Below are positions 2,852 through 33,434 of a stretch of DNA of 33,434 bases, piece by piece. A program made the translations under genes and the position numbers. The notes under the pieces are model-generated. The model was not told the origin of the DNA, did no database searches, and saw only the letters and a program-made list of their open reading frames with translations. The DNA is from a virus. The stretch lies in the IMG/VR virus record IMGVR_UViG_3300035034_000986, positions 1 through 33,434 of that record; one strand, written 5' to 3'. Position 1 is the stretch's first letter, and each line of letters opens with the position of its first letter.

Positions 2852-2878
2852 TACTTTTATTTTATGTACTTATTTATA

Positions 2879-4060
2879 ATGGACAAAGCAGAACTATTGT
2901 CAGAGGTGAACAAAACAATCACCACTAATCTAGAAAAAAGCCTTCCAGAGATCGTAGACGCTTCTATCTCTCTCAAACTCTCAGCTATTGAAACTAAGAC
3001 AGTTGGAGAAATTGAAGACATCAAGAAAGAACTCAAAAAGCTTAGTGTTTCTTCTAAGAAGGTTGACACTGCTGCTCAAGGGATGATCGCTAAAACAGCT
3101 ATCGTCGAAGGATGGAAAGCTCTTGCAAAGGGTGGTAAATTTGAAGAGGCTGTAACTGCATCTATCAAGACTATGTCTGAAGGAACAGGAACAGAAGGAG
3201 CTGAATTAGTGTTTGACCAATTCGAGAGAGATGTTATCAGAGTTATCAACGCATATGATGTTGTAAGTCTTGTAAGATCATTCAATATCTTGAAAGGTGA
3301 CAAAGTTATCTTCCCATCAAAGGACGGATCAACTACAGCTGCATACGTAGGAGAGGGATCAACTATCTCTGAGTCAGAATTGACAACAGGGAACGTTGCT
3401 ATCGACATCTACAAAGTAGCTACACTCACAGGAGTCACTAACGAACTTCTAGACGACACTATGACAGTACCAGACCTCTACAACCTTATCGTTGAAGATG
3501 TTGCTGAACAAGTTGCTGCTCTACAAGAGGACGCTATCTTGGGAGGTACTGGGACAAACCAGCCTACAGGTATCACAAACGCATCAGGTATTATCGAAGT
3601 GGCTCTTGGTACTGCAGAAACAACTGCTGATATTGCTGACACTAATCTTGTTGACGTAATGACAAGAGCGGCTAAGAGGTACAAAAGAAATACTTCTTGG
3701 GTTATGTCACAATACACATGGGGTAAATTGATGTCACTAAAAACAACTGACGGATACCCATTGTATCCAGAATTGAGAAACATGACTAGCCCATCACTTC
3801 TAGGTAGACCAGTAGTTATATCAGATTCTTCAAAGATCGTACAAGACGCTGGGACAGATGTCGCAGACGCTGTATCGATTATCTTCGGAGACTTCGACTT
3901 CTACTACATGGCTAACAGAAAGGGTCTTTCTTTCGAGAAAGGACATCTTGCAAACGACTTCAGAGACGACAAAACAACTTTCAGATCTATCACTAGATTC
4001 GGAGGTAATGTTGCAATCCCTGCTGCGTTTACAGTATTGAAGAATGGAGTTGCTGCTTAG
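2879..4060 (+). CDS. Major capsid protein, HK97 fold
   Basis: 393 residues from this ATG. An in-frame ATG at 2864 would add five residues, but 2879 keeps the TTTAT box 23 nt upstream as at other genes. Residues 1-90 form a charged helical delta domain (LEKSLPEIVDASIS, EIEDIKKELKKLS) that the upstream protease would remove. The mature part shows HK97 features: VIFPSKDGSTTAAYVGEG, then IDIYKVATLTGVTNELL, then AILGGTGTNQPTGI, and a C-terminal RSITRFGGNVAIPAAF. All 30 glycines use GGN and none uses TGA, unlike its neighbours. A UUCG-loop terminator follows. Confidence 0.95.
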   Translation: MDKAELLSEVNKTITTNLEKSLPEIVDASISLKLSAIETKTVGEIEDIKKELKKLSVSSKKVDTAAQGMIAKTAIVEGWKALAKGGKFEEAVTASIKTMSEGTGTEGAELVFDQFERDVIRVINAYDVVSLVRSFNILKGDKVIFPSKDGSTTAAYVGEGSTISESELTTGNVAIDIYKVATLTGVTNELLDDTMTVPDLYNLIVEDVAEQVAALQEDAILGGTGTNQPTGITNASGIIEVALGTAETTADIADTNLVDVMTRAAKRYKRNTSWVMSQYTWGKLMSLKTTDGYPLYPELRNMTSPSLLGRPVVISDSSKIVQDAGTDVADAVSIIFGDFDFYYMANRKGLSFEKGHLANDFRDDKTTFRSITRFGGNVAIPAAFTVLKNGVAA

Positions 4061-16317: not shown

Positions 16318-16524
16318 ATGAACAAGCGACTATTTGCGATATACCACATACTATTCATAGCAATAGTCGCCTCAATATCCTATATAGTCTTGAGACCTAG
16401 AAATACATGGTCCACTTGAGTCAGCTCAAAGTCTTGCTACCATAGCCACCAGATACCAAAGACGATTAAGAGGGTCATTGCATTTGACTCTTATGGTGAT
16501 TGCATTAAATTCGTTAACAGCTAA
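16318..16524 (+). CDS. Small membrane-anchored protein in the lysis cassette
   Basis: 68 residues, one TGA. An N-terminal hydrophobic segment (FAIYHILFIAIVASISYIVL) is followed by a short polar domain with two cysteines (SKSCYHSH, DSYGDCIKF). It could be a signal-anchored periplasmic or surface protein. I do not recognise a family. Position between two holin candidates suggests a lysis accessory. Confidence 0.6.
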
Positions 16525-16548
16525 CATTTATATCTTCTTACATATACG

Positions 16549-19572: not shown

Positions 19573-20367
19573 CTAGACGGATAGCTTAACCCAAGTCTCA
19601 CCGTTGATTATCATCTCATCTGCATTCTTTGTCTTTTCCTTCTGTGGTGTTATCTCGTAGTCTCATAAGACATACTGCGCTTCCCAGTAGTCAGATCAAG
19701 ATAACTCCTCCATTCTTGTTATTTTTCAACTATCATCTCATCAAATAAACCTTCACTTTGTGTAGTTGTTATTCGCACTTAACATCGCATTTCAGTAGAC
19801 TCTTGCATCTCAGGAGACCTCTGCATCTCAGGAGGCTCTTGCATTTCAGTAGACCTCTGCCTCTCAGGAGACCTCTGCATCTCAGTAGATACTTGCATTT
19901 CAGTAGACTCTTGCCTCTCAGGAGACCTCTGCATCTCAGTAGATACTTGCATTTCAGGAGACACTTGCATTTCAGGAGACACTTGCCTTTCAGTAGACCT
20001 CTGCCTCTCAGGAGACACTTGCCTTTCAGGAGATACTTGCATTTCAGTAGACTCGTGCCTTTCAGGAGACTCTTGCATCTCAGGAGACCTCTGCATCTCA
20101 GGAGACTCTTGCCTTTCAGGAGACTCTTGCCTCTCAGTAGACTCGTGCATTTCAGTAGACCTCTGCCTCTCAGGAGATACTTGCACTTCAGTAGACTCGT
20201 GCATTTCAGTAGACTCGTGCACACCCGCTTTGAGTCAGGTTGGATTCTTTTTCTATCCATCACCCAAGATCTCATCTGCTCACGTCAGAGAAGTCCTTTA
20301 ATGACTCGATCTGGTGTAGTGTCTTTCATTGATGATTCTTTGTGTTGTCAGTTAGTTTGTATTTCAT
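19573..20367 (-). CDS. Hexapeptide-repeat (left-handed beta-helix) phage protein
   Basis: 264 residues. The N-terminus YKLTDNTKNHQGKTLHQIES, then LKDFSDVSRGDLGGWIEKE and SNLTQ, is that of a widespread phage/prophage protein family whose members continue with tandem ARVYGNA-type units. Here 24 units of A-x-V-x-G-x follow, predicted to fold as a left-handed beta helix. The last 75 residues (NYTKGRFIGGDDSGKITR, YWEAQYVLGDYEITPQK) are not repeats. The repeat glycine is TGA in all 24 units. The biochemical role of the family is unknown to me. Standard-code tools break this gene and report large false antisense ORFs. The stop of the upstream gene lies two bases before its ATG. Confidence 0.88.
19789..20220 (-). 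repeat. 24 tandem 18-bp repeats, each with TGA as glycine
   Basis: Twenty-four exact 18-bp periods (432 bp). Each minus-strand unit reads GCA-(CGA/AGA/AGT/GAG)-(GTC/ATC)-(TAC/TCC)-TGA-(AAT/GAT/GAG/AAG/AGT); one unit has GCC at the third codon. The fifth codon is TGA without exception, and no unit uses GGN there. Variation is confined to alternating codons, so the array grew by recombination of a few unit types. Confidence 0.96.
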
Positions 20368-21126: not shown

Positions 21127-21750
21127 TTATACTCTCTTATATGTTACTCCATTGACTACTATAGTATCAGTATACTCTACTGTCTCTGTCTTTACTCAAA
21201 GCTTTTTCGTAAAGTCTGCTTCTGATATTCAGCTTAGCTCCTCGAACTTATCATAAGTAAAATGCGGTATTTCTAGCGTACTCTTGATGTCTCATAAGTC
21301 TTCACATCTATCAAATGCCAACCTCCAACAGTCTTTCATGTACTCATCTTTATTCTCTTTGTTTGATATTCTTTTAAGGTATCAATCCGTAGATCAATAT
21401 TCGGGGTTTAGTTTTTTCTCTGCGTCTGTCATTTCTCACTCACTCACCCAAACGAGTGTATCAAAATAGAACCGACCAGGGAATTCTATGCTTCATTGTT
21501 CTATATTTGTCTGAACTCAGAATATCCTGACCTTAGGTGTGTCTGTGTTTAGGTATCCTGTGTTGAAGTCTCCTGTATTTCGGTCTCCTGCGTTGCGGTG
21601 TCCTGCGTTGCGGTGTCCTGTGTTGCGGTCTCCTGCGTTTCGGTGTCCTGTGTTTCAGTCTCCTGTGTTGCGGTGTCCTGTATTTCGGTCTCCTGTGTTA
21701 CGGTCTCCTGTGTTTTTGTTTCCTGTGTTGCGGTTTCATGTGTTACCCAT
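21127..21750 (-). CDS. Pentapeptide-like (NTG) repeat protein
   Basis: 207 residues. Residues 2-72 are about 13 tandem five-residue units of the form N-T/A-G-D/H/N-R, an Asn-Gly-rich pentapeptide repeat seen in many phage and prophage proteins. A non-repeat domain follows: VRIFGVQTNIEQGSIEFPGR, FYFDTLVWVSEGEMTDAEKK, GYLKRISNKENKDEYMKD and the end TIVVNGVTYKRV. About nine TGA codons are in frame, but within the repeats only two glycines use TGA and the rest use GGA, unlike the neighbouring hexapeptide gene. Function unknown. Confidence 0.82.
21541..21735 (-). repeat. Thirteen tandem 15-bp coding repeats (NTG units)
   Basis: Period 15 bp. Most minus-strand units read AAC-ACA-GGA-GAC-CGC or close variants; CAC replaces GAC and GCA replaces ACA in some units. 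The plus-strand ORF over this array is a shadow. Confidence 0.9.
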
Positions 21751-21773
21751 CTATACTTAGTATATATTAAAAA

Positions 21774-22597: not shown

Positions 22598-22759
22598 TTA
22601 AAAGTTTTCCTCAAGATACAGTTCAAAGAGCTCACACATTTTCTTCTTTGCCTCCTCCCTGTCGACATCATCGAAGTCCTCCGACCACATATCGTCATTG
22701 TTGTAGATGAAGTCATCAGGGGTCATAGTAGGTACGAACCTCCATCAACTTATCGTCAT
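22598..22759 (-). CDS. Small acidic hypothetical protein
   Basis: 53 residues. It starts WRF-like (MTISGWRFVPTMTPDDFIYN) and continues with a very acidic stretch (DDMWSEDFDDVDREEAKK). One TGA. Its ATG overlaps the end of the upstream gene at an A-TGA string that is glycine in that gene. No family recognised. The charge suggests a protein- or DNA-mimic-like partner, which is only a guess. Confidence 0.6.
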
Positions 22760-22914
22760 CTTGCCATCTTCATCTCCTCTAAAATCTCTTCTGTGTAATA
22801 GAACTTCTGTTCTTCGATACTGAACGGGATCGTTGATAAGTGCTTTTCCCTCTCGGTATCCATTCCGTTGGTGATTTCGATAGGCTCTCCAGTCAATAGG
22901 TCTGTTACAAACAT
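22750..22914 (-). CDS. Small hypothetical protein, first gene of the membrane operon
   Basis: 54 residues (FVTDLLTGEPIEITNGMDTE, then EKHLSTIPFSIEEQKFYY). One TGA, one codon before the TAA. It is the first gene downstream of the minus-strand promoter at 22962-22989, with TTTATA 22 nt before its ATG. No family recognised. Confidence 0.62.
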
Positions 22915-22961
22915 GATAGATCAGGTAGAATATAAATGCATCCCTTACTTGAGATAATTAC

Positions 22962-22989
22962 ATTCTATAGATAAACATATGTTTTGCAA
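22962..22989 (-). promoter_or_regulatory. Promoter of the minus-strand accessory operon
   Basis: Minus-strand TTGCAA (22984-22989), 16 bases, TAGAAT (22962-22967), preceded by CTA. It has the same form as the promoters at 24623-24650, 28696-28723 and 29042-29069. It lies between the 74-residue protein gene and the accessory genes. Confidence 0.62.
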
Positions 22990-23012
22990 TAGATTTATAC
23001 ACTTTCTGATAA

Positions 23013-23237
23013 CTAATCGTTTTTTAGTGCTACAGTAGTATCAACTCAAGCAGCCTCGAGCTTGGAAATATAGTTCTTTCACATCTTACCGCTAGCATAA
23101 CAAGCGTACAATCGATTTTGGCTTATGTTGTTAAGCTTGAAAAACTCAGACATTAGCAACCTTCTCCCAAGCTTCTCCTCCATCTTGATAAGCGCAAGCC
23201 TTATCTGTGATCTCATCTTAAATTCATTTATATTCAT
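23013..23237 (-). CDS. Small helical protein, possible DNA-binding regulator
   Basis: 74 residues. The central part, RLLMSEFFKLNNISQNRLYA then SGKMGKNYISKLEAAGVDT, has the spacing of a helix-turn-helix (helix, turn at NNISQ, second helix) but no clear family match. It would be the best candidate in this genome for a regulator of the repeated operators at 28629-28898. Two TGA codons. Its 5' end overlaps the nuclease gene by 20 bases. Confidence 0.6.
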
Positions 23238-23868
23238 TATAGGTTTTAATAAGTTCTAAAACATCACCCTTGTGCATGTCCTCCATCTTCTTCTCAAAAG
23301 CTAGGGTCAAATTAAATGTGATCATATTGTGTTGAACGTCATACTTCTTGACAACCTTCTTGTAAACCTCCACAAAGTCACAACTCTCTGTGCCTGTTAG
23401 CTTCATGTATATATATGCTTGTAGTGCATACTCCTCGTAAGGTGTCATAGTAGATCACATCCTTGGCTTGTTCTCTGGCGTTGTCTTTGTTGCTGCTGTC
23501 TTGTAGTCAATACACTTGTCATTGTAGACACAGTCGACATATCAACAGAAGGTGACACCTCGGATCTCTCACTCAACATACTTCTCTCTTTCTGGAGGCC
23601 CAACTCACTCCTCTTCATATCACTCAGCGTTGCTAAATAGAGTCTCAAGGGTTTTCAGCATGTTTTTCTTCTCACTCTCATGCCATCCCGTGTCTTTTAT
23701 AAATCTTACTGCCTCCTCTTTCTCTCCTGTCTGCATGAACTTATGGAAGGCTGTTCCAAGGTCAAAGTATGTTTTTGGTGCTGAGTCTCTGAATCATAAC
23801 AGATAACGTCACCCCCAAGTGGCTTTGTCGTTCTTGTAGCATTTTAATTGTGATGCAGATAGCTTCAT
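23218..23868 (-). CDS. PD-(D/E)XK nuclease (Cas4/RecB-like)
   Basis: 216 residues. Standard decoding splits it into three fragments; code 25 restores one gene with eight TGA codons. Features of the PDDEXK_1 family: the opening LSASQLKCYKNDKATWGGRY, LGTAFHKFMQTG, EGEIRGVTFCGYVDCVYNDK then CIDYKTAAT (the catalytic D..DYKT core), and YEEYALQAYIYMKLTG (the QxxxY motif). No cluster of four cysteines is obvious, so an iron-sulphur centre is unlikely. It probably processes DNA ends during replication or recombination, together with the SSB-like protein just upstream. Confidence 0.88.
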
Positions 23869-23883
23869 GGTATTTTTTGACAT

Positions 23884-23902
23884 AAAAAAGCCCCGAAGGG
23901 CT
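23884..23902 (-). terminator. Intrinsic terminator after the SSB-like gene
   Basis: On the minus strand AGCCC (23898-23902), TTCG loop, GGGCT (23889-23893), then five T residues. It lies between the SSB-like stop and the nuclease ATG, so the nuclease depends on readthrough or a further promoter. Confidence 0.8.
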
Positions 23903-23906
23903 ATAA

Positions 23907-24557
23907 TTAGAACGGTAGATCTTCATCAGTGTCTGTGTCGTCCATTATACTTTTATCTGTGTGTGCTGTCTTAATATTGTTTCTGTATTCAATGAGGTCT
24001 CCTGCCGCTTCTACTGCTTGCTCTCATTCCTTCTTAGTAACTACCGATCAGATCTCAAACGATGGTAATCTGTAAGGACTCGCAGCGTCTGTCATTAGAA
24101 CGGACTCAATATACTTGATTTTATTTTGTGTCTGGTCAAGCTTCTTCATAAGCTCACTAAAGTTATAGTATGCCTTACCCTTCAAGAAGAACTGTATAAC
24201 CTCTCCTTTATGCAACACAGTCAGTGCAATGTGCAGTTTAGCACCTGCTGTCGATAGATCTGCCTTGATATCTTTGTACGCTCCTTTAGCGAATCTGCCG
24301 TTATTGAATATACTCACTGTCAGCTCCTCTGAGAAGTAGTCAATCTCGTTACTCCAGAATCATGCTTTGTGTGCTGCGCTGTATCACTTGATAGTGTAAC
24401 CAACCTTGAGCAACACAAACTCTCACAACTCAAATATGATGTTCTCTGACTTGTCACCGTCCCAGTATTCAAAGTGTCCAGCGTCTCAGCCACCCTTCCA
24501 TTTGAGGTACTTACTAACTGGCGATGCTGATTCTTTCTTCTCTCCATAAATAGGCAT
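23907..24557 (-). CDS. Single-stranded DNA-binding protein-like
   Basis: 216 residues with six TGA codons. The C-terminus SIMDDTDTDEDLPF is the acidic, phenylalanine-ended tail typical of SSB proteins, which recruits partner proteins. The body contains a probable OB-type beta region (ENIIFELGEFVLLKVGYTIK, ELTVSIFNNG, KLHIALTVLHKGEVIQFFLK) and a helix SELMKKLDQTQNKIKYIE. It would coat single-stranded DNA at the fork. It has its own promoter (24623-24650) and terminator, consistent with high expression. Confidence 0.78.
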
Positions 24558-24622
24558 GGTAATTATGATTTACTTATAAAACCATCGCTTTTAACGTCTT
24601 CGTGGGTTGGACGATTACTCAC

Positions 24623-24650
24623 ATAATACATTGTTTTATGTGTATTGCAA
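24623..24650 (-). promoter_or_regulatory. Promoter of the SSB-like gene
   Basis: Minus-strand TTGCAA (24645-24650), 16 bases, TATTAT (24623-24628), preceded by CTA. This is the best match to the repeated promoter form and is identical in both boxes to the plus-strand promoter at 29042-29069. It lies in the 100-bp gap between the VRR-NUC and SSB-like genes, which holds no gene. Confidence 0.68.
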
Positions 24651-24657
24651 TAGATTT

Positions 24658-24918
24658 TTATAGATTATTTACTCAATCCACACCTCTACAGACTTCCGCC
24701 CTGAATCAGTGGCTTTGTAGCTCCTCTATCCTGTACTCCTGTAGGTCTCTTAACTTTGTCTTGTCTCACTTTACCTCGATGAACCGTGGTGTCTCTCAGG
24801 CCTTGAGCGCTAGCAGATCAGGGATACCGTTCCTGTTGGTCTTCATCAGCTTTAATACATAGTATCACCTCGCTTCTAATTTCTTTATTAACTTCGCCTG
24901 TACCTTTGACTCTAGCAT
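24658..24918 (-). CDS. VRR-NUC domain nuclease
   Basis: 86 residues. A single VRR-NUC domain: LESKVQAKLIKKLEARGYYV, NGIPDLLALKAGETPRFIEV (the PD...EVK catalytic core), KGDKTKLRDLQEYRIEELQS and HGFRAEVCRGVD. Glycine before DKTK and in the SHGFRA turn are TGA. Stand-alone phage VRR-NUC proteins next to SF2 helicases are common; the pair probably resolves DNA structures in replication or recombination. The start overlaps the helicase stop. Confidence 0.9.
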
Positions 24919-26135
24919 CTCATAAAATGTGAATACGTAAAACTCTTCTTACCTAACACAGTCTTGTATACCTTACTCTCTACGCCTCACACCATGAACA
25001 GCCAATGCACAAGTGTCTCTCAACGGTCAATCGTTGTCAACCTGTCCCTCGCTTGTCGATAACTCGTTGCGCTGTAGTCGATACTGTAGAACACTATCTC
25101 GTCAGCCTCTTTGTAACTTACTCACTCTCTACCGTTCCTTACTTGCTTGATGATGCTCTTATTAGTAGACCTGAACTCTTGGAAGTCCTCAGTCACAAGG
25201 TCTCACAACACCTGCTTCAATATCTCTTTCTCCGCCTGATAATAATAGAATATCAACAACTTCTTGTCTCTAAAATTGTCCCTTATGTACTCAGCCTTAG
25301 ACAAATCAAGTATCGCCGTCTCTCAATTATCCATAATAACACTACCCCCGCACAACTGTCTGTACTTAGTCAGCTTTGTTGCAGCGCTATCCATCACCAC
25401 ATTGCCGTCTTTTAACCTCAAAACGTCTTGTTTCTTTACGCTCTTGAGTAACGTCAGAAGTTCTGGTGTTGGGCGGACATTGTGTACTGTCTCGGTTATT
25501 TTGTTGCTGAATCAGCTTTGTTTTTGGCTGAACGATATAATATACTCAGTGATCTTCTCGAATATCTTCTTTTTCTTTGCGTTACTATAATCGTTTATAT
25601 TGTATCAGTTGATTTTCTTCTGTGTTACCTTCACATAATCGCTCGCCCGTTTATAGAAGCTAGCATATTTCCTGAACGGTCAACGTCACGTCATCCAAAA
25701 TTGGTGGAACAACTGTGAGTAACTCTCTGGGCTAGGCGTTCAGCTCATCAATATCATATAATCACAATCTATTTTCCTTACAGCTTTTGCGTTTGCTGGT
25801 GGTTTTGGGAAAGATGAGAAGGTGTGTGCCTCGTCAACAATCACAACATCAAAGTGTCACTCCTGTTTCCCTATAGTCTTGTAGTTGTTTGTAGACAACA
25901 CTAGATCGAACTCTGCTCACATCAATTTGTAGTCGTCTACGATATTGCCATTGTCGATACAGAGTTTCTTTGTCACAAACAAGACCCTCTTCGCTCAAAG
26001 GCCTTTGGCTATACTCAATGAAGTGAGAGTTTTTCACGTCCTCACCTCCATCGCTAGATACAGTAGTCTTTTGTCTCTAAGGATATCCACCCCATCAGAG
26101 ACGATTCTTTCTTGGTACTCCCTTAGACTAAACAT
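24912..26135 (-). CDS. SF2 (SNF2-like) DNA helicase
   Basis: 407 residues with about 16 TGA codons. Walker A: YLAMEVRTGKTLTS (residues 27-40). DEAH box: VVIVDEAHTFSSF near 100. Motif III: ILMSGTPSPESYSQL. The C-terminal lobe has EIVFYSIDYSATSYRQARDR followed by LTTIDRGE, the motif V-VI block of phage SF2 helicases, where the usual TG or SG of motif VI is replaced by IDRGE. It probably remodels forks or branched DNA with the VRR-NUC protein. Its ATG overlaps the primase stop (TAATG). Confidence 0.9.
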
Positions 26136-28552
26136 TATGACCTTACCGATAGGAGGTCACTAACGTCAATTCCTTCATAGGCTCTAAACCTCTTGCCTCA
26201 GACCATCTTTTGCACTTCGTCAATCTTGAACCTCTCAAAGTGATACCTCATCCTCTTACAGATAGTGTTGTGCCCCCAAGGCTTGTGCCCTGTACCCCTT
26301 AGCCACCTATTGAAGTCGTCCGAGACGATATGCTTTAATGACATTACGCCATGCTGTATGTCTCACTGCTCCTCTTTCTCTATAAGGTACTGTAACACAA
26401 GGTCTTGCTCATCGATAAAGTCTTGCATGCCTCCCACAAGCTCAGTAGCCATTTTTATAGTCCCCCTCTCCAAAACTCTCATAAGTCATGAGATCATCCA
26501 GTTTAGTATCTGTGGTCACTCTTTCTCAACTAGTACTTGATCCATTCTCTCCACCTTCTCTACTGTCTCAATATCTCATAAACATTGCACAATAATCCCC
26601 CTACGTTTGATCGAGTTATCCTTGTCCTTTATCCATGGCTCTTTGTTTGTACACATAATCAACGAAGCCTTATTCTTGAACGGCACACGATCCCTGTACT
26701 TTCTGTTCATGTTTATCTCTTCTCAAGATATGAGCTTCTTGATAAGGTGGTCATCAAGTTGCACTTTCCCCATATCATAATCGATAGCCAATGTCTTTCC
26801 GATCATTCATGGTAAAGAGAAGTCCTCACCCATTTTGTTGGTTATTGTGAGTCCGACGGCTCTACTTCACATAATACCAGCGAGTGTCTTTGTGAATACA
26901 CCTTTACCATTACCACCTCATCATATCAATATCAACGCTCTCTCTCATGGGTTTCATCAAACTAGGCAGATACCACAGAACTCTTGTATTGTCTCCATAA
27001 CAGCCTCCTTGTCTGTGTACCCACACAACATCCGCTTGAGAAAGTCTAGCCATCTCTCTGGATCAGTAGAACCTAACACCTCGTTGTGGTCAATATCTAT
27101 AGTCCCAGATATGAAATCTTTTCTCGTTATGTCCGACACACTATAAGAGTCGCCTGTGATTGTTATTTTGTGGTGCTTCAATGGTATGACGTTGTCGTCT
27201 GGCTCGTGTAAAGTCCTAGTATTTCAGGATATATCAGTAGACTTTATCTTTATGAAAGTAAGCACCTCCACTACTTGCTTAGTGGTGACCTTGTCAAACT
27301 TGTTGTCAAGATGAGATAGTATAATATTCTTTAGTACATCCTCGTCTATTATGGAGTACAATGGTGAGTCACCTTTTGAAATGTAAACATCACCTCTATG
27401 ATACGCAAAAGTGTGTTCTAATAAGAAGAGCTTCGCTTCTTCTAGTGGGTTGAGTCTCTTCGCTAGGAACTTCTGATCCAATGGTTTGTTCTCTAGTAGT
27501 GATTCCCTTTTTCATTCTACTTTCTCTTTCTTTGGCTTCTCTGTAATAGCTCTCTCCTCTTTCATGCCTGCATCATATATGTGAGTAAACTTCTCTTTGA
27601 AGTAGTCAAACGTGTCCTTAGCGGAAAGTCACAGCTCTTTATTGACAAAAGAAAAGCAGTTGTATGCGTCCTCATCAGACGACAAATACTTAGATCAATC
27701 ACTTATTAGTAGGTTAGACCCCTTTACTATAAACAACGAACTGTTCTTGCCATCCTTTGGAGATAGCAAGTGTATGTAATTGGAAGACTCTTTATATCAA
27801 GCCATGCCTAACTCTTTACTAACAATGTCAGCAAAATCGGTGCTGCTTATATCACATATGAGATCGAAGACCTCACCGTCACCGTTACTATACTTCGTTT
27901 TCTTATGACTACTCACCACTTTAGATAAAGTCTCTTTTGCGTAACTGGAAAGGTCACTGAATATACTGCAGTTCTTGTCTTGCTCTTTCGCTACACTCAC
28001 AGTGAAGGCTTCACTTAGCCCATACCTCTCAGATCTCTTAGCGTTCACCGTTCATATACAACGGGTTATCCTTGAGATGTTCTTACATGAGTGGTCAGAC
28101 CTCATGGAGTCCGGGAGTAGCAAATCACTTTGGTTATAGAGCCATTGTGTTGCGTTCTTGTACTCGACTAGGTCAGTCTCGATAAGCTTTGGTGCTGTAT
28201 AGTATATGTGCAACCCGTTTCAAGAGTATACTATATACCTCCAGTCAGATAACACCTTGTGCTCCTTGTAAGCAGACACAATAAAAACAACAGCTTCCTC
28301 AATGACACTATCTGGTGTTTCACCACCTAGATTCGATCTAATATCAATATCGATAACCATGTATCACTTACTAGTCACATCCACATCCTTCGTGTATCTT
28401 CAAATCCTCACTCATCATCAAACAACAAAGTACAGATCAGTATGACCAGAAAGGTCTTTAGGTACACTCCTCAAAGACACAGGCTTTCAGTTAGGGAAGT
28501 GCCTGAACTCAATGTTCTTGCCATCACAACCAAGATTCTTTAGAAACGTCAT
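26135..28552 (-). CDS. Primase-helicase: AEP primase fused to SF3 helicase
   Basis: 805 residues and about 26 TGA codons. Residues 1-250 are an archaeo-eukaryotic type primase: GYMVIDIDIRSN has the catalytic D-x-D pair, and YSGNGLHIYYTAP has the S-G-x-G-x-H motif. A D5_N-like linker follows. The SF3 helicase occupies about 530-720: ALILIGGGGNGKGVFTKTL (Walker A, with glycines from TGA TGA GGT GGT), KTLAIDYDMG (Walker B-like), RVPFKNKASLIMCTNKEPW (motif C) and SIKRRGIIVQ (arginine finger). It would open the origin and prime synthesis. No DNA polymerase is encoded, so the host enzyme must extend. First gene of the minus-strand replication operon. Confidence 0.93.
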
Positions 28553-28564
28553 AATTTTTTACAT

Positions 28565-28622
28565 ACACATATAAAGACCCCTATGCTCACTTCCTTGCGT
28601 GCTTAGAGGTCTTTATATGTGT
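28565..28622. repeat. Long inverted repeat in the primase leader
   Basis: Arms 28565-28586 and 28601-28622. ACACATATAAAGACC pairs perfectly with GGTCTTTATATGTGT, and after one mismatch CTA/TAG, then after another GC/GC, continue the stem. The loop is 14 bases. It lies 13 bases upstream of the primase ATG, within its leader, and the arm supplies the TTTATA box 23 nt before the ATG. It may be a translational control hairpin or an origin element. Confidence 0.85.
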
Positions 28623-28628
28623 ATATGT

Positions 28629-28646
28629 GTCGACTGGCCAGTTGAC
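28629..28646. promoter_or_regulatory. 18-bp palindrome, operator candidate
   Basis: GTC-n-ACTGGCCAGT-n-GAC: perfect ten-base core with matching outer triplets and a single mismatched pair. It lies between the primase hairpin and the -10 of the minus-strand promoter, a position where a bound dimer would block transcription of the replication operon. Confidence 0.5.
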
Positions 28647-28695
28647 AATATAACAAAAAGGCGACTATATGCAAGGAAGTTTTTTAGGTATTTGC

Positions 28696-28723
28696 AGTAT
28701 AACAAGTTACACACTTAATGCAA
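28696..28723 (-). promoter_or_regulatory. Promoter of the replication operon
   Basis: Minus-strand TTGCAT (28718-28723), 16 bases, TATACT (28696-28701), preceded by CTA. It drives the primase, helicase and VRR-NUC genes. The leader of about 140 nt includes the palindrome and the long hairpin. Confidence 0.65.
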
Positions 28724-28740
28724 TAGCAAAGTGGTTCGTT

Positions 28741-28898
28741 ACCTGTGCATTACACAGGTTAGTGGTATTTACAGTGTAAACATTTGTTGCTTAATATATT
28801 TTTACACGTGTAGTACACAGATCGCTTTTTAGGTATATGTGAAATGAAAAACCAGTCATAGATTGAGAAATTGATGATTGCATGTGTTACACAGGTTA
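28741..28898. promoter_or_regulatory. Cluster of palindromic operator or iteron sites
   Basis: Sites: ACCTGTG-catta-CACAGGT (28741-28759), TTTACA-g-TGTAAA (28768-28780), TACACGTGTA (28803-28812) and TGTGT-t-ACACA (28883-28893). They share the half-site TACAC/GTGTA. A 12-mer TTACACAGGTTA occurs at 28750-28761 and again at 28887-28898, and TTTTTAGGTAT occurs at 28681-28691 and 28826-28836, so the region looks like an imperfect duplication of about 90 bp. The second 12-mer lies inside the spacer of the plus-strand promoter. Confidence 0.6.
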
Positions 28899-28905
28899 AT
28901 ATACT
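28878..28905 (+). promoter_or_regulatory. Plus-strand promoter overlapping an operator
   Basis: TTGCAT (28878-28883), 16 bases, TATACT (28900-28905), the same boxes and spacing as the divergent replication promoter. The spacer contains TTACACAGGTTA. No ORF starts in the 136 bases between it and the next promoter, so it gives either a long leader or a short non-coding RNA. Confidence 0.58.
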
Positions 28906-29041
28906 ATAAACTTCTTTAAATCAATATATATATAAAAACATAGAAGCGCTATATAGTGAAACTCTTTCTGGTTTTCAAGTTGTGAAACTGTGTAGTTGCA
29001 CTCTTCACAGAGAATGTAAAGTAGTATATTGCTATTGCCTA

Positions 29042-29069
29042 TTGCAATATAGGGGACTGGCAGTATTAT
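29042..29069 (+). promoter_or_regulatory. Promoter of the methyltransferase operon
   Basis: TTGCAA (29042-29047), 16 bases, TATTAT (29064-29069), preceded by CTA and inside the palindrome TATTGCAATA. It lies 35 bases before the ATG of the first plus-strand gene of this operon. Confidence 0.66.
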
Positions 29070-29104
29070 TGGTGTTAGTTATTTAGATGTAAATTGTTGT
29101 TGTT

Positions 29105-29710
29105 ATGAACGAAGAACAAAGACTATGATTCAGCTACGCCGTAAAGGAGCGAAATAAGGCAGTAGGGAACGGAGAAGGTATGCTATTCCCTAAGATAACA
29201 CACCCTAACGACGAGCTAGAAGTAAAGGCTCTACGAACTGGAGGGATAAATATCGTAGTAGAGGAGATAGTGGAGGGCATAGAGGCTCAGACTAATGTTC
29301 TTTTCTTAGACGCTATGATAGACACAGCCTTTGGAACTCTATGAGAACTACACAAGATGTGACACGAGTATCATCCAGAATTACAATACCAACAAGCAAA
29401 TAGAGATATAAGGGCTTCTAAGGTAAGCAAGGAATGATTGTTAGAGTACACAGACTACATAGAGAAGGAACTAAAGAACAAAACGATCAATTATGATCTT
29501 ATCAGCTCACACTATCACTATATCATACACGTTTCCTTGCTATTAGCTGAGTGATTAGTAGGAGACAGACTATTCGCTGCTTGCATGGAGGTATGCAGGT
29601 CCAACTTCGCCAAACTACCATACGAAAAAGACAGCAATGGAAAGGTAAGGAAGGGAGATTGATTTGTAGCACCGAGCCTAGGGCAATTCATCTCCAAGAA
29701 GACTTCATAA
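29105..29710 (+). CDS. Hypothetical protein heading the methyltransferase operon
   Basis: 201 residues with six TGA codons. Mostly helical and polar: NVLFLDAMIDTAFGTLGELH, VSKEGLLEYTDYIEKELKN, HYHYIIHVSLLLAEGLVGD. There are two cysteines in AACMEVCRSN. I do not recognise the family. Its TAA overlaps the ATG of the first methyltransferase (TAATG), so it may be a partner of that enzyme or an early regulatory protein. TTTAGA lies 23 nt upstream. Confidence 0.75.
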
Positions 29711-30888
29711 TGAAAGAAACTTTGTTGCATTGAGATTGTTTGGAGAAATTAAAGGAAATGGAGGACAACTCCATCGATAGTATGGTTACAGATCCCCCTT
29801 ACTGAATATCATTCATGGGTAAGAAACGAGATTATGACGTACCACAGAAAGAGGTACGAGAAGAATGCCTAAGGGTACTAAAACCATGAGGTCATGCTTT
29901 GATTGCTTGCTGAACAAGAACACAACACAGAATGGCAGTAAACCTGGAGGATTGAGGGTTTGAGATTAGAGATATTATTGCGTGGGTATATGGTAGTTGA
30001 TTTCCCAAATCACTCAATCTGGGAAAAAGCGTGGACAAGTTGCAGGGTAATGAAAGGGAGGTTATGTGAAAAACAATATATGCAGATTGAAGTAAATGAA
30101 GAAGAACAGCAAAACACTTTACAGGTGTTGATTTATGAGGTTCTAGCGTTAATACCAAATGAACATCACCACACGAATGACGAGGTACAGCTCTTAAACC
30201 TGCAATGGAACTCCGAACACTATGCAGAAAGCCACTATCAGAAAAGACTATTGCAAAGAATGTATTGAAGCATTGAACAGGTGGCATCAATATAGATGAG
30301 TGTAGGGTGGGAACTACTGATAAATTGGGAGGAGGTGCTGAAAAACGTGCAACTTTTGCTGGTAAAGAGGGGTGGGATAGACCACGAATGCACGATAAAG
30401 AGAAAGAAAAATCCCATTCTGATAAAATCAAACATAACGTAAAGCACGCAGAGGGTTTAGGCAGATTCCCTGCTAACTTAATACATGATTGAAGTGATGA
30501 GGTGGTTGGGTTGTTTCCAGATAGTAAAAGTGGTACAGTAAAAGGTATATATGGACATAAAGAATGATTTGCAAAAGGTGAGGTATATCAAGAACACAAA
30601 GGTAGTTCTTGATCTGCAGCTCGCTTCTTCTATTGCAGTAAGGCTTCAAAAAGCGAAAGGAATAAGGGGCTAGAGGGGCAATGTACACACCCAACGGTTA
30701 AGCCTATAAAGCTTATGCAATACCTATGCAGACTTATAACCCCCGTATGATGAACCATACTAGACCCTTATATGTGATCTGGTAGTACAGGTATATGAGC
30801 TAAGTTGTGAGGTTTTGATTTCATAGGTATAGAGAGAGAGGAAGAGTACATGGATATAGCGAGGGCAAGGATGAAAGCACGAGGCTAG
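29710..30888 (+). CDS. DNA methyltransferase 1 (N6-adenine or N4-cytosine, beta order)
   Basis: 392 residues. Motif IV DSMVTDPPYGISF is near the N-terminus and motif I TILDPYMGSGSTGIGAKLGG is near the C-terminus, the beta-class order, with the target-recognition region between. VLKPGGHALIACGTRT and FEIRDIIAWVYGSGFPKS are further catalytic-domain motifs. DPPY favours adenine-N6, but N4-cytosine cannot be excluded. No restriction endonuclease is seen nearby, so it probably protects phage DNA against host restriction. About 20 TGA codons in frame. It is closely paralogous to the next gene but differs in the central region. Confidence 0.92.
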
Positions 30889-30917
30889 TATGGCACAATT
30901 TATAACAACACTTCATA

Positions 30918-32153
30918 ATGAAAGAAATTTTGTTGCATTGAGAATGTTTGGAGAAATTAAAGGAAATGGAGGACAACTCCATCGATAGTATGGTTACAGA
31001 TCCCCCTTACTGAATATCGTTCATGGGTAAGAAATGGGATTATGATGTACCGCAGAAAGATGTATGGGCTGAGTGTCTAAGGGTATTGAAGCCATGAGGT
31101 CATGCACTGATCGCTTGCTGAACAAGAACGCAACACAGAATGGCAGTAAATCTAGAGGATTGAGGGTTCGAGATTAGAGATATTATTGCGTGGGTATATG
31201 GTAGTTGATTTCCCAAATCACTCAATCTGGGAAAAAGCGTGGACAAGTTGCAGGGTAATGAAAGGGAGGTTAATGATTATGTAGCACCAGATGGCAAAAA
31301 AAGGTGTGGTGGCAATAGTTTTTCTGTAGGAAAAGAGCCAGATGGTAGATGAATAAATAAATCAACCAAATGAACATCACCACACGAATGACGAGGCACT
31401 GCACTCAAGCCTGCAATGGAACTCCGAACACTATGCAGAAAGCCACTATCAGAAAAGACTATTGCAAAGAACGTATTGAAGCATTGAACAGGTGGTATCA
31501 ATATAGATGAGTGTAGGGTGGGTAGTGAAAAGATAAATGTCACTTGTCACTTGTGACAAGACTTAATGTGAGCCATGAAATGAAATCCTTGCGACAAAGA
31601 TACTACTTATACTACAACTAATACTTGAAGATTCCCTGCTAACTTAATCCACGATTGAAGTGATGAGGTTGTTAATCTGTTCCCAGAGACGAAACCAAGT
31701 AAACAAAACAAAATAAGTGATAAAAGAATAAATGATGGGAAATCAATGTTTATAGATGAAGTTCGTACACCTGAAAATAGTTATGCAGATAGAGGCTCTG
31801 CAGCTCGTTTCTTCTATTGCGCCAAGGCTTCAAGAAGCGAAAGGAATAAGGGGCTAGAGGGGTTTGAGAAAAAGCCAGGATGAAGTAATGCAAAATGATA
31901 CACTAGAGATGTGGCTAATTGAAACGATAGAAATAGACCAGTCGCAAATTATCACCCAACGGTTAAGCCCATTAAACTTATGCAATACTTAGTAAGACTT
32001 ATAACACCTAAGTGATGAACTATACTAGACCCTTATATGTGATCTGGTAGTACAGGTATATGAGCTAAGTTGTGAGGTTTTGATTTCATAGGTATAGAGA
32101 GAGAGGGAGAGTACATGGATATAGCGAGGGCCAGGATGAAAGCACGAGGCTAG
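30918..32153 (+). CDS. DNA methyltransferase 2, tandem paralogue
   Basis: 411 residues. Same motif order: DSMVTDPPYGISF and TILDPYMGSGSTGIGAKLGG. The first 118 residues and the last 67 are nearly identical to methyltransferase 1, as is a central block of about 50 residues (TSPHEGRGTALKPAMEL onward). Segments at about 119-148, 202-237 and 316-345 are unrelated. This one has HLGQDLMGAMKGNPCDKD and a longer linker before HPTVKPIKLMQYL. It probably has a different target sequence. Begins after a 29-bp spacer that is itself repeated before the TM2 gene. Confidence 0.92.
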
Positions 32154-32800: not shown

Positions 32801-33434
32801 ATGACAAAACGGGACGCGTTAAACGATAAAGCGGTGAGGGTTGAGTACTTCAGAGACAACTTCCCTGCTTTCTTTGCGTACCATTTCTGACGACCATTCA
32901 CCAAGTTCCAAGTCGAGTGGATGAAGTCTGTGCAAAGTAGAAAGAATACTTTCATTGAGGCATTCAGAGCTAGTAGAAAGACTACTATGGTCAGATGATA
33001 TGTTGTGTGGTGTATATGTTACAAGGTCGAGCCGCACATAGTTGTCCAGTCATACGAGTCAAACCTTTCATCCGAGTGGGTAAGGAATGTTGCAAAGATG
33101 TTATTCAAGAGGTCAATAGTCAACGACTACGGGCTACTTTTCCCTTTGGAGACAAAAAAGGACGACCTCAAGAAGAAGTCATTACATAACTTTGACACAA
33201 CAAACGGCGTCAAGATCAATAGTAAGTCATTAAGGCAAGTCTTGAGGTGAGCTAATGAGTACGACATGGAAGACGATAAGAGTGCGAGACCCACTCTATT
33301 GGTTATGGATGATGTGGACGTTGAGAGTTCTGTTGAGAATCCAGACATAGTGGAAAAGAACTACAACAAAATTATGGGTGAGACAATCAGCGCACTTGAT
33401 CCGCTAAGAAGGAAGATAATATTCTTATGAAATA
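32801..33434 (+). CDS. terL: Terminase large subunit, N-terminal part (ATPase domain)
   Basis: Starts at 32801 and continues through the 127-bp repeat into position 128 of the window; the whole protein has 458 residues. Motor-domain features: adenine-binding KFQVEWMKSVQSRKNTFIEA, a P-loop AFRASRKTTMVRG that lacks the usual GxGK glycines, and Walker B TLLVMDDVDVE. It hydrolyses ATP to drive DNA into the head through the portal. The mature protein continues with the nuclease domain at 1-870. Three TGA codons are in this part. Confidence 0.94.
33308..33434. repeat. Terminal direct repeat, right copy (assembly overlap)
   Basis: Exact copy of positions 1-127, in the same orientation and the same terL reading frame. 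Confidence 0.95.

Follow-up and report, generated by a model that had tools for sequence, protein, structure and literature searches.

We report that a virus record of 33,434 nucleotides, analysed over its whole length (hereafter the window), carries five strong sites and one weak site in which a TTGCAA or TTGCAT -35 box is followed at a distance of 16 nt by a -10 box, and we propose that all six are very probably sigma70 (RpoD)-type core promoters that the unmodified holoenzyme of a genetic code 25 host would use in vivo. The strong five are four sites bearing CTA directly before the -35 box together with 28647-28674, and the weak one is 28878-28905. We file the sites as a sigma70 variant because the TTGACA hexamer is typical of that class but not required. 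They combine a TTG-containing -35 box and a TANNNT -10 box at the 16-18 nt spacing of the class with a position in gaps upstream of genes.

Judged from its sequence, the record is a tailed phage infecting a code 25 host. A perfect 127-base terminal repeat (1-127 = 33308-33434) indicates that it is a complete genome of ~33.3 kb, circular or circularly permuted. Its open reading frames are short under the standard code and long genes emerge under table 25 (TGA = glycine); TGA occurs at conserved glycines, as in the primase P-loop GGGGNGKG, and the TGA glycines of P-loops and other places in the phage point to code 25. Therefore, its host would be a Gracilibacteria/Absconditabacteria-type bacterium. 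A search for that host by DNA match among 353 genomes of the class gave short matches only, with no clear spacer or prophage. Capsid relatives were short contigs without the control region, primase and helicase searches returned no relatives, and a capsid profile search of the genomes returned none. The identified genes encode a primase/helicase, a DEAD-type helicase, a VRR nuclease and a PD-(D/E)XK exonuclease, as well as two N6/N4 methyltransferases, terminase, capsid, portal, tape measure and amidase. Among the ~40 phage proteins scanned, which cover all but a few small ORFs, neither an RNA polymerase nor a sigma gene was recognised, and a phage-encoded polymerase or sigma factor was thus rejected as the reader of these promoters.

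All six matches to TTGCAW-N16-TAKNNT fall in three gaps (22942-23012, 24558-24657 and 28553-29104), which persist under the code 25 reading and make up ~2% of the genome. The leftmost predicted promoter, 22962-22989 (minus strand; TTGCAA-N16-TAGAAT with CTA), faces the gene 22750-22941 (-) and, beyond it, genes for two small membrane-type proteins, a pentapeptide-repeat protein and a glucosaminidase-like lysis protein. The second, 24623-24650 (-; TTGCAA-N16-TATTAT with CTA), faces 23907-24557 (-), which is phrog_6706 of unknown function, the PD-(D/E)XK exonuclease gene 23218-23883 (-), and 23013-23237 (-). The third gap holds four sites and is a control region from which two operons diverge, the replication operon to the left and the packaging/structural operon to the right. 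On the minus strand, 28696-28723 (TTGCAT-N16-TATACT with CTA) has TG immediately 5' of its -10 box (TGTTATACT) and faces the primase/helicase/VRR-nuclease operon 24658-28552 (-); 28647-28674 (TTGCAT-N16-TATATT) lies in tandem with it, downstream, and faces the same operon. On the plus strand, 29042-29069 (TTGCAA-N16-TATTAT with CTA) faces the rightward operon from 29105 onwards, which includes two methyltransferase, terminase, capsid and tail genes and crosses the circular junction, and the weak candidate 28878-28905 (TTGCAT-N16-TATACT, lacking CTA) stands 199 nt ahead of the start codon at 29105.

An initial annotation, made from the letters of this DNA, had listed five of these sites as a repeated phage promoter. 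Its five -35/-10 pairs were located correctly on both strands with a spacer of exactly 16 nt in each, and CTA directly precedes the -35 box at four of the five, as claimed; the list was real but incomplete, since it omitted 28647-28674 (-). The -10 motif TAnnaT in its title fits only three of the five, as 28696 (-) and 28878 (+) carry TATACT, and its strict pattern gives four matches in the window versus 0.94 expected, one of which, 16500-16527 (+), lies mostly within a gene. The placement in intergenic gaps ahead of operons was borne out for all six matches with gaps defined under code 25, and so was the departure of the -35 box from the sigma70 consensus, with TTGCAA or TTGCAT at six of six sites and TTGACA at none. 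The comparison with shuffled sequence, set beforehand as the refuting test, came out in favour of the promoters: TTGCAW-N16-TAKNNT has 6 matches in the whole window versus 0.59 expected, with at least 6 in 0 of 100 dinucleotide shuffles, and CTATTGCAW-N16-TANNNT has 4 versus 0.01 expected. CTATTGCAW also occurs three times inside genes without a -10 box (12805 (-), 30248 (+) and 31459 (+)), and CTA plus TTGCAW without a -10 box is therefore not a promoter mark.

The promoters of code 25 bacteria show the same design. Code 25 genomes were located with a DNA pattern encoding HVDHGKTT, a motif of EF-Tu/IF2, in which TGA stands for glycine, and in seven of them TTGCAW-N15..17-TANNAT occurs 53-108 times per genome, versus 1-21 times for the reversed pattern. 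For promoter modelling, ~2.2 Mb of code 25 host DNA was used and the genomes were split in two by primary sigma type, namely group A (e.g. G001, G065 and G097) and group B (e.g. G002, G004, G006, G048, G077 and G102). The model was a two-box expectation-maximisation on 465-714 upstream regions seeded with TTG and TATAAT only; TTG and TATAAT are therefore assumed, while the spacer, the preferences at -32 to -29 and the lineage differences were learned. From promoters that were predicted, not mapped, group B gave cTTG-[A.65/C.22]-[A.54/T.25/C.20]-W-W followed by TAtaat, with a spacer of 16 nt (~0.83-0.85) or 17 nt (0.14), and group A gave tTTG-[A/C]-N-W-W with a spacer of 15-17 nt centred on 16. 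Because an E. coli control failed, its 126 upstream regions being too few and the model drifting to another signal, two code 11 Patescibacteria served as the control, and the same procedure gave them a TTGACA-like box, TGnTATAAT and a spacer of 17 nt. The share of spacers at 16 nt was 0.82 and 0.62 in the two code 25 groups, and the share at 17 nt was 0.64 and 0.69 in the code 11 genomes G161 and G191; the 16-nt spacer of the phage sites fits the code 25 class and differs from the 17 nt of the code 11 Patescibacteria.

Within the -35 box, code 25 hosts use TTGACA and TTGCAW roughly equally. Whole-genome counts of TTGCAW (N15-17) and TTGACA (N16-18) are biased by unequal spacer windows, and in group A further by repeats and coding matches, and we therefore relied on upstream-only counts. 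Among 96 upstream sites of group B with TTG-NN-W-N16/17-TATAAT, the pair AC occurs 29 times (7.0 expected) and CA 24 times (7.9 expected), while AA occurs 11 times (16.2 expected) and CC is outside the ten commonest pairs; the expected counts were drawn from all TTG-NN-W in the same upstream regions. On these counts, TTGACA and TTGCAW look like alternative boxes rather than independent positions, and sense upstream DNA holds the exact TTGCAW-N16/17-TATAAT at ~40 times the density seen elsewhere. We lean, with some reservation, towards the view that Gracilibacteria-type code 25 bacteria and their phages share a lineage-specific grammar of mutually exclusive TTGACW and TTGCAW -35 boxes and a 16-nt spacer, which a primary sigma factor with unchanged DNA-contact residues would read.

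The host model then singles out the phage sites blindly. Trained on no phage sequence, the group B model scored every phage position, strand and spacer, and over the whole phage it placed 28696 (-) first, 24623 (-) second, 29042 (+) third and 28647 (-) fourth, with 22962 (-) at rank 5-6 and 28878 (+) at rank 19-20. Four gap sites reach 15 bits, a level at which dinucleotide-shuffled gaps give 0.17 sites, and 0 of 300 shuffles attained the observed count. A second, independent code 25 phage fragment of 13.5 kb (L165) has TTGCAA-N16-TATAAT, TATAGT or TATATT in three gaps, with two of these sites flanking its divergent region, and 5 of its sites score at least 16.5 bits, compared with 0.07 in shuffles. 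The pattern was nevertheless picked after the fact, and over this part of the window a generic sigma70 scan gave 41 hits, hardly more than the 35.9 in shuffles, as would be expected if the likeness had merely arisen in AT-rich gaps and been selected by eye. Such an origin is extremely improbable, as the observed motif and gap-site counts were attained by no shuffle, the ranking was made blindly by a model from other genomes, and L165 replicates the finding. For the five strong sites, the shuffles and the blind ranking refute chance as the full explanation; for 28878-28905 (+), a chance origin is possible.

The CTA extension is the feature that the host model does not hold, as that model prefers C or T directly 5' of TTG, and it may be specific to the phage. 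It could be taken to mean that CTATTGCAW is a site at the -35 position where a phage or host regulator binds to activate or repress, with the likeness to TTG being secondary, and the joint occurrence of CTATTGCAW and a -10 box at four sites, far above the expected count given above, the perfect palindrome TATTGCAATA at two of them (24643-24652 and 29040-29049) and the lack of CTA at the L165 sites would suit such a regulator. However, only two of the four sites are palindromic, CTATTGCAW also stands in both methyltransferase genes (the copies at 30248 and 31459) and at one further coding position, the host model gives the sites top scores although it contains no CTA, and no recognised DNA-binding domain marks any of the scanned phage proteins as a regulator; we consider a regulator site unlikely. 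The strongest phage sites are all CAW while code 25 hosts mix ACA and CAW, and a phage-specific contribution at CTATTGCAW is therefore possible.

The recognition helix of the code 25 primary sigma keeps TRER(I/V)RQ, that is, R584, E585, R588 and Q589, and the group B helix differs by I587V and A592Q, with I590V as well in G048. Altered sigma contacts were rejected, as region 4.2 has no substitution at these four residues, and therefore neither an altered contact residue nor an activator need be invoked. The initial annotation had offered a host-specific sigma preference or an activator for the unusual -35 box: the preference holds for the promoter grammar, as seen in the code 25 genomes, where both TTGCAW and TTGACA serve as -35 boxes and the spacer is 16 nt, and in the blind model, but not for the contact residues, and nothing found requires an activator, though one is possible. 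Its "repeated phage promoter" is likewise well supported and better worded as a phage-borne promoter of host type. In E. coli sigma, R584 touches -31 and E585 touches -33, and the R584A mutant prefers A:T at -31 (PMC2613000); promoter grammar varies among other phyla without change in these residues (PMC8407463). When CA sits one base further upstream, the C:G pair falls at -32 in place of -31; the template G at that position might nonetheless remain within range of R584 if this residue is flexible. Besides the primary sigma, most of the code 25 genomes examined (G001-G006, G065, G077 and others) have a second match, which extends over sigma region 4 only.

This short, region-4-like protein, together with the coexistence of TTGCAW and TTGACA, which could reflect two promoter classes, would accord with promoters that belong to an alternative host sigma instead of the primary one. 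But TTG, a 16/17-nt spacer and TATAAT are common to both boxes, which is the pattern that a single sigma should give, the second hit in G005, the sole one read, carries the same TRERVRQIE recognition helix, and in the profile the short hits extend over region 4 alone; we regard an alternative sigma as very unlikely.

We propose that the primary sigma factor would act on the phage in the following way. Sigma region 4 would bind TTG and tolerate more than one 3' half of the -35 box, ACA or CAW in these hosts. Sigma region 2 would melt the TAtaaT-like -10 box 16 nt downstream, near which transcripts would start. The phage would thereby set host-type promoters ahead of its leftward replication operon (a tandem pair), the nuclease/phrog_6706 block, the lysis-side block and the long rightward packaging/structural operon. 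As one promoter type precedes functionally different gene sets, timing would have to come from elsewhere, such as operators, leader structures or promoter strength, and within 28553-29104 the candidates are the repeat TTACACAGGTTA, the palindrome CCTGTGcattaCACAGG and a hairpin in the primase-operon leader. The repeat occurs twice, at 28750 and at 28887, the latter copy between the -35 and -10 boxes of the weak promoter 28878, and the palindrome lies at 28742-28758. The leader hairpin (28563-28624 (-)) has 24 bp with 92% complementarity and a folding z-score of -7.0, matches no Rfam family and ends ~10 nt 5' of the start codon, and translational or attenuation control is possible there. The operator-like repeats of this region lie at 28739-28761, 28802-28820 and 28887-28898, comprising the two copies of TTACACAGGTTA, TTACCTGTGCATTACACAG / TTACACGTGTAGTACACAG and the palindrome CCTGTGcattaCACAGG.

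These promoters resemble the bacterial sigma70 (RpoD) promoter TTGACA-N17-TATAAT in the TTG triad, the TATAAT-like -10 box, the near-standard spacing, the position upstream of operons and the recognition helix retained by the hosts' primary sigma. However, -32/-31 is CA as well as AC, the spacer is 16 instead of 17 nt, and code 25 promoters have no general TGn element. The variants of Alphaproteobacteria, Actinobacteria and Betaproteobacteria (PMC8407463) also combine taxon-dependent grammar with conserved R584, E585 and Q589, but they lose TTG or the -7 T, whereas the present promoters have a very strong TTG and differ in -32/-31 and in spacer length; neither "Candidate" nor "Patescibacteria" occurs in that paper. 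Phages without their own polymerase, such as 7-11, likewise carry repeated host-type promoters ahead of gene clusters, and one of the predicted sigma70 promoters of 7-11 is TTGCAA-17-TAATAT, but that phage has TTGCAA as one variant among many (PMC4331800), whereas here TTGCAW is nearly the sole -35 box. Known code 25 Gracilibacteria/Absconditabacteria phages (PMC10746230) agree in genetic code and host type; that work covers codes and hosts, and "promoter", "transcription" and "sigma" are absent from its text.

Code 25 bacteria have few or no cultures, and the literature searched on their promoters and sigma recognition contained no description of promoters or other transcription signals; the promoter grammar of these hosts thus appears undescribed so far. 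A promoter model transferable from host genomes to phages would help operon annotation in both, and could aid phage-host pairing where a CRISPR spacer match is absent. The case adds to those of changed promoter grammar with constant sigma contact residues, and if the mutually exclusive boxes are real, promoter specificity would have moved without changes in the known contacts.

Some further features of the phage genome were observed. The major capsid gene 2864-4060 (+) has no TGA among its 30 glycine codons, where GGA and GGT dominate, while TGA is a leading glycine codon in the neighbouring genes; the capsid relative in L001 also has no TGA glycine codons and several other relatives have few, a pattern suggesting that glycine decoding is under selection in such a highly expressed gene. 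Two closely similar DNA methyltransferase genes stand in tandem at 29710-32153 (+), with repeat units of 66-300 nt that are 83-96% identical, and are apparently a recent duplication. In the lysis-side block, 19715-20286 (-) holds ~20 copies of an in-frame 18-nt tandem repeat in a beta-solenoid/bactofilin-like protein, and 21528-21759 (-) holds ~10 copies of an in-frame 15-nt tandem repeat encoding pentapeptide repeats.
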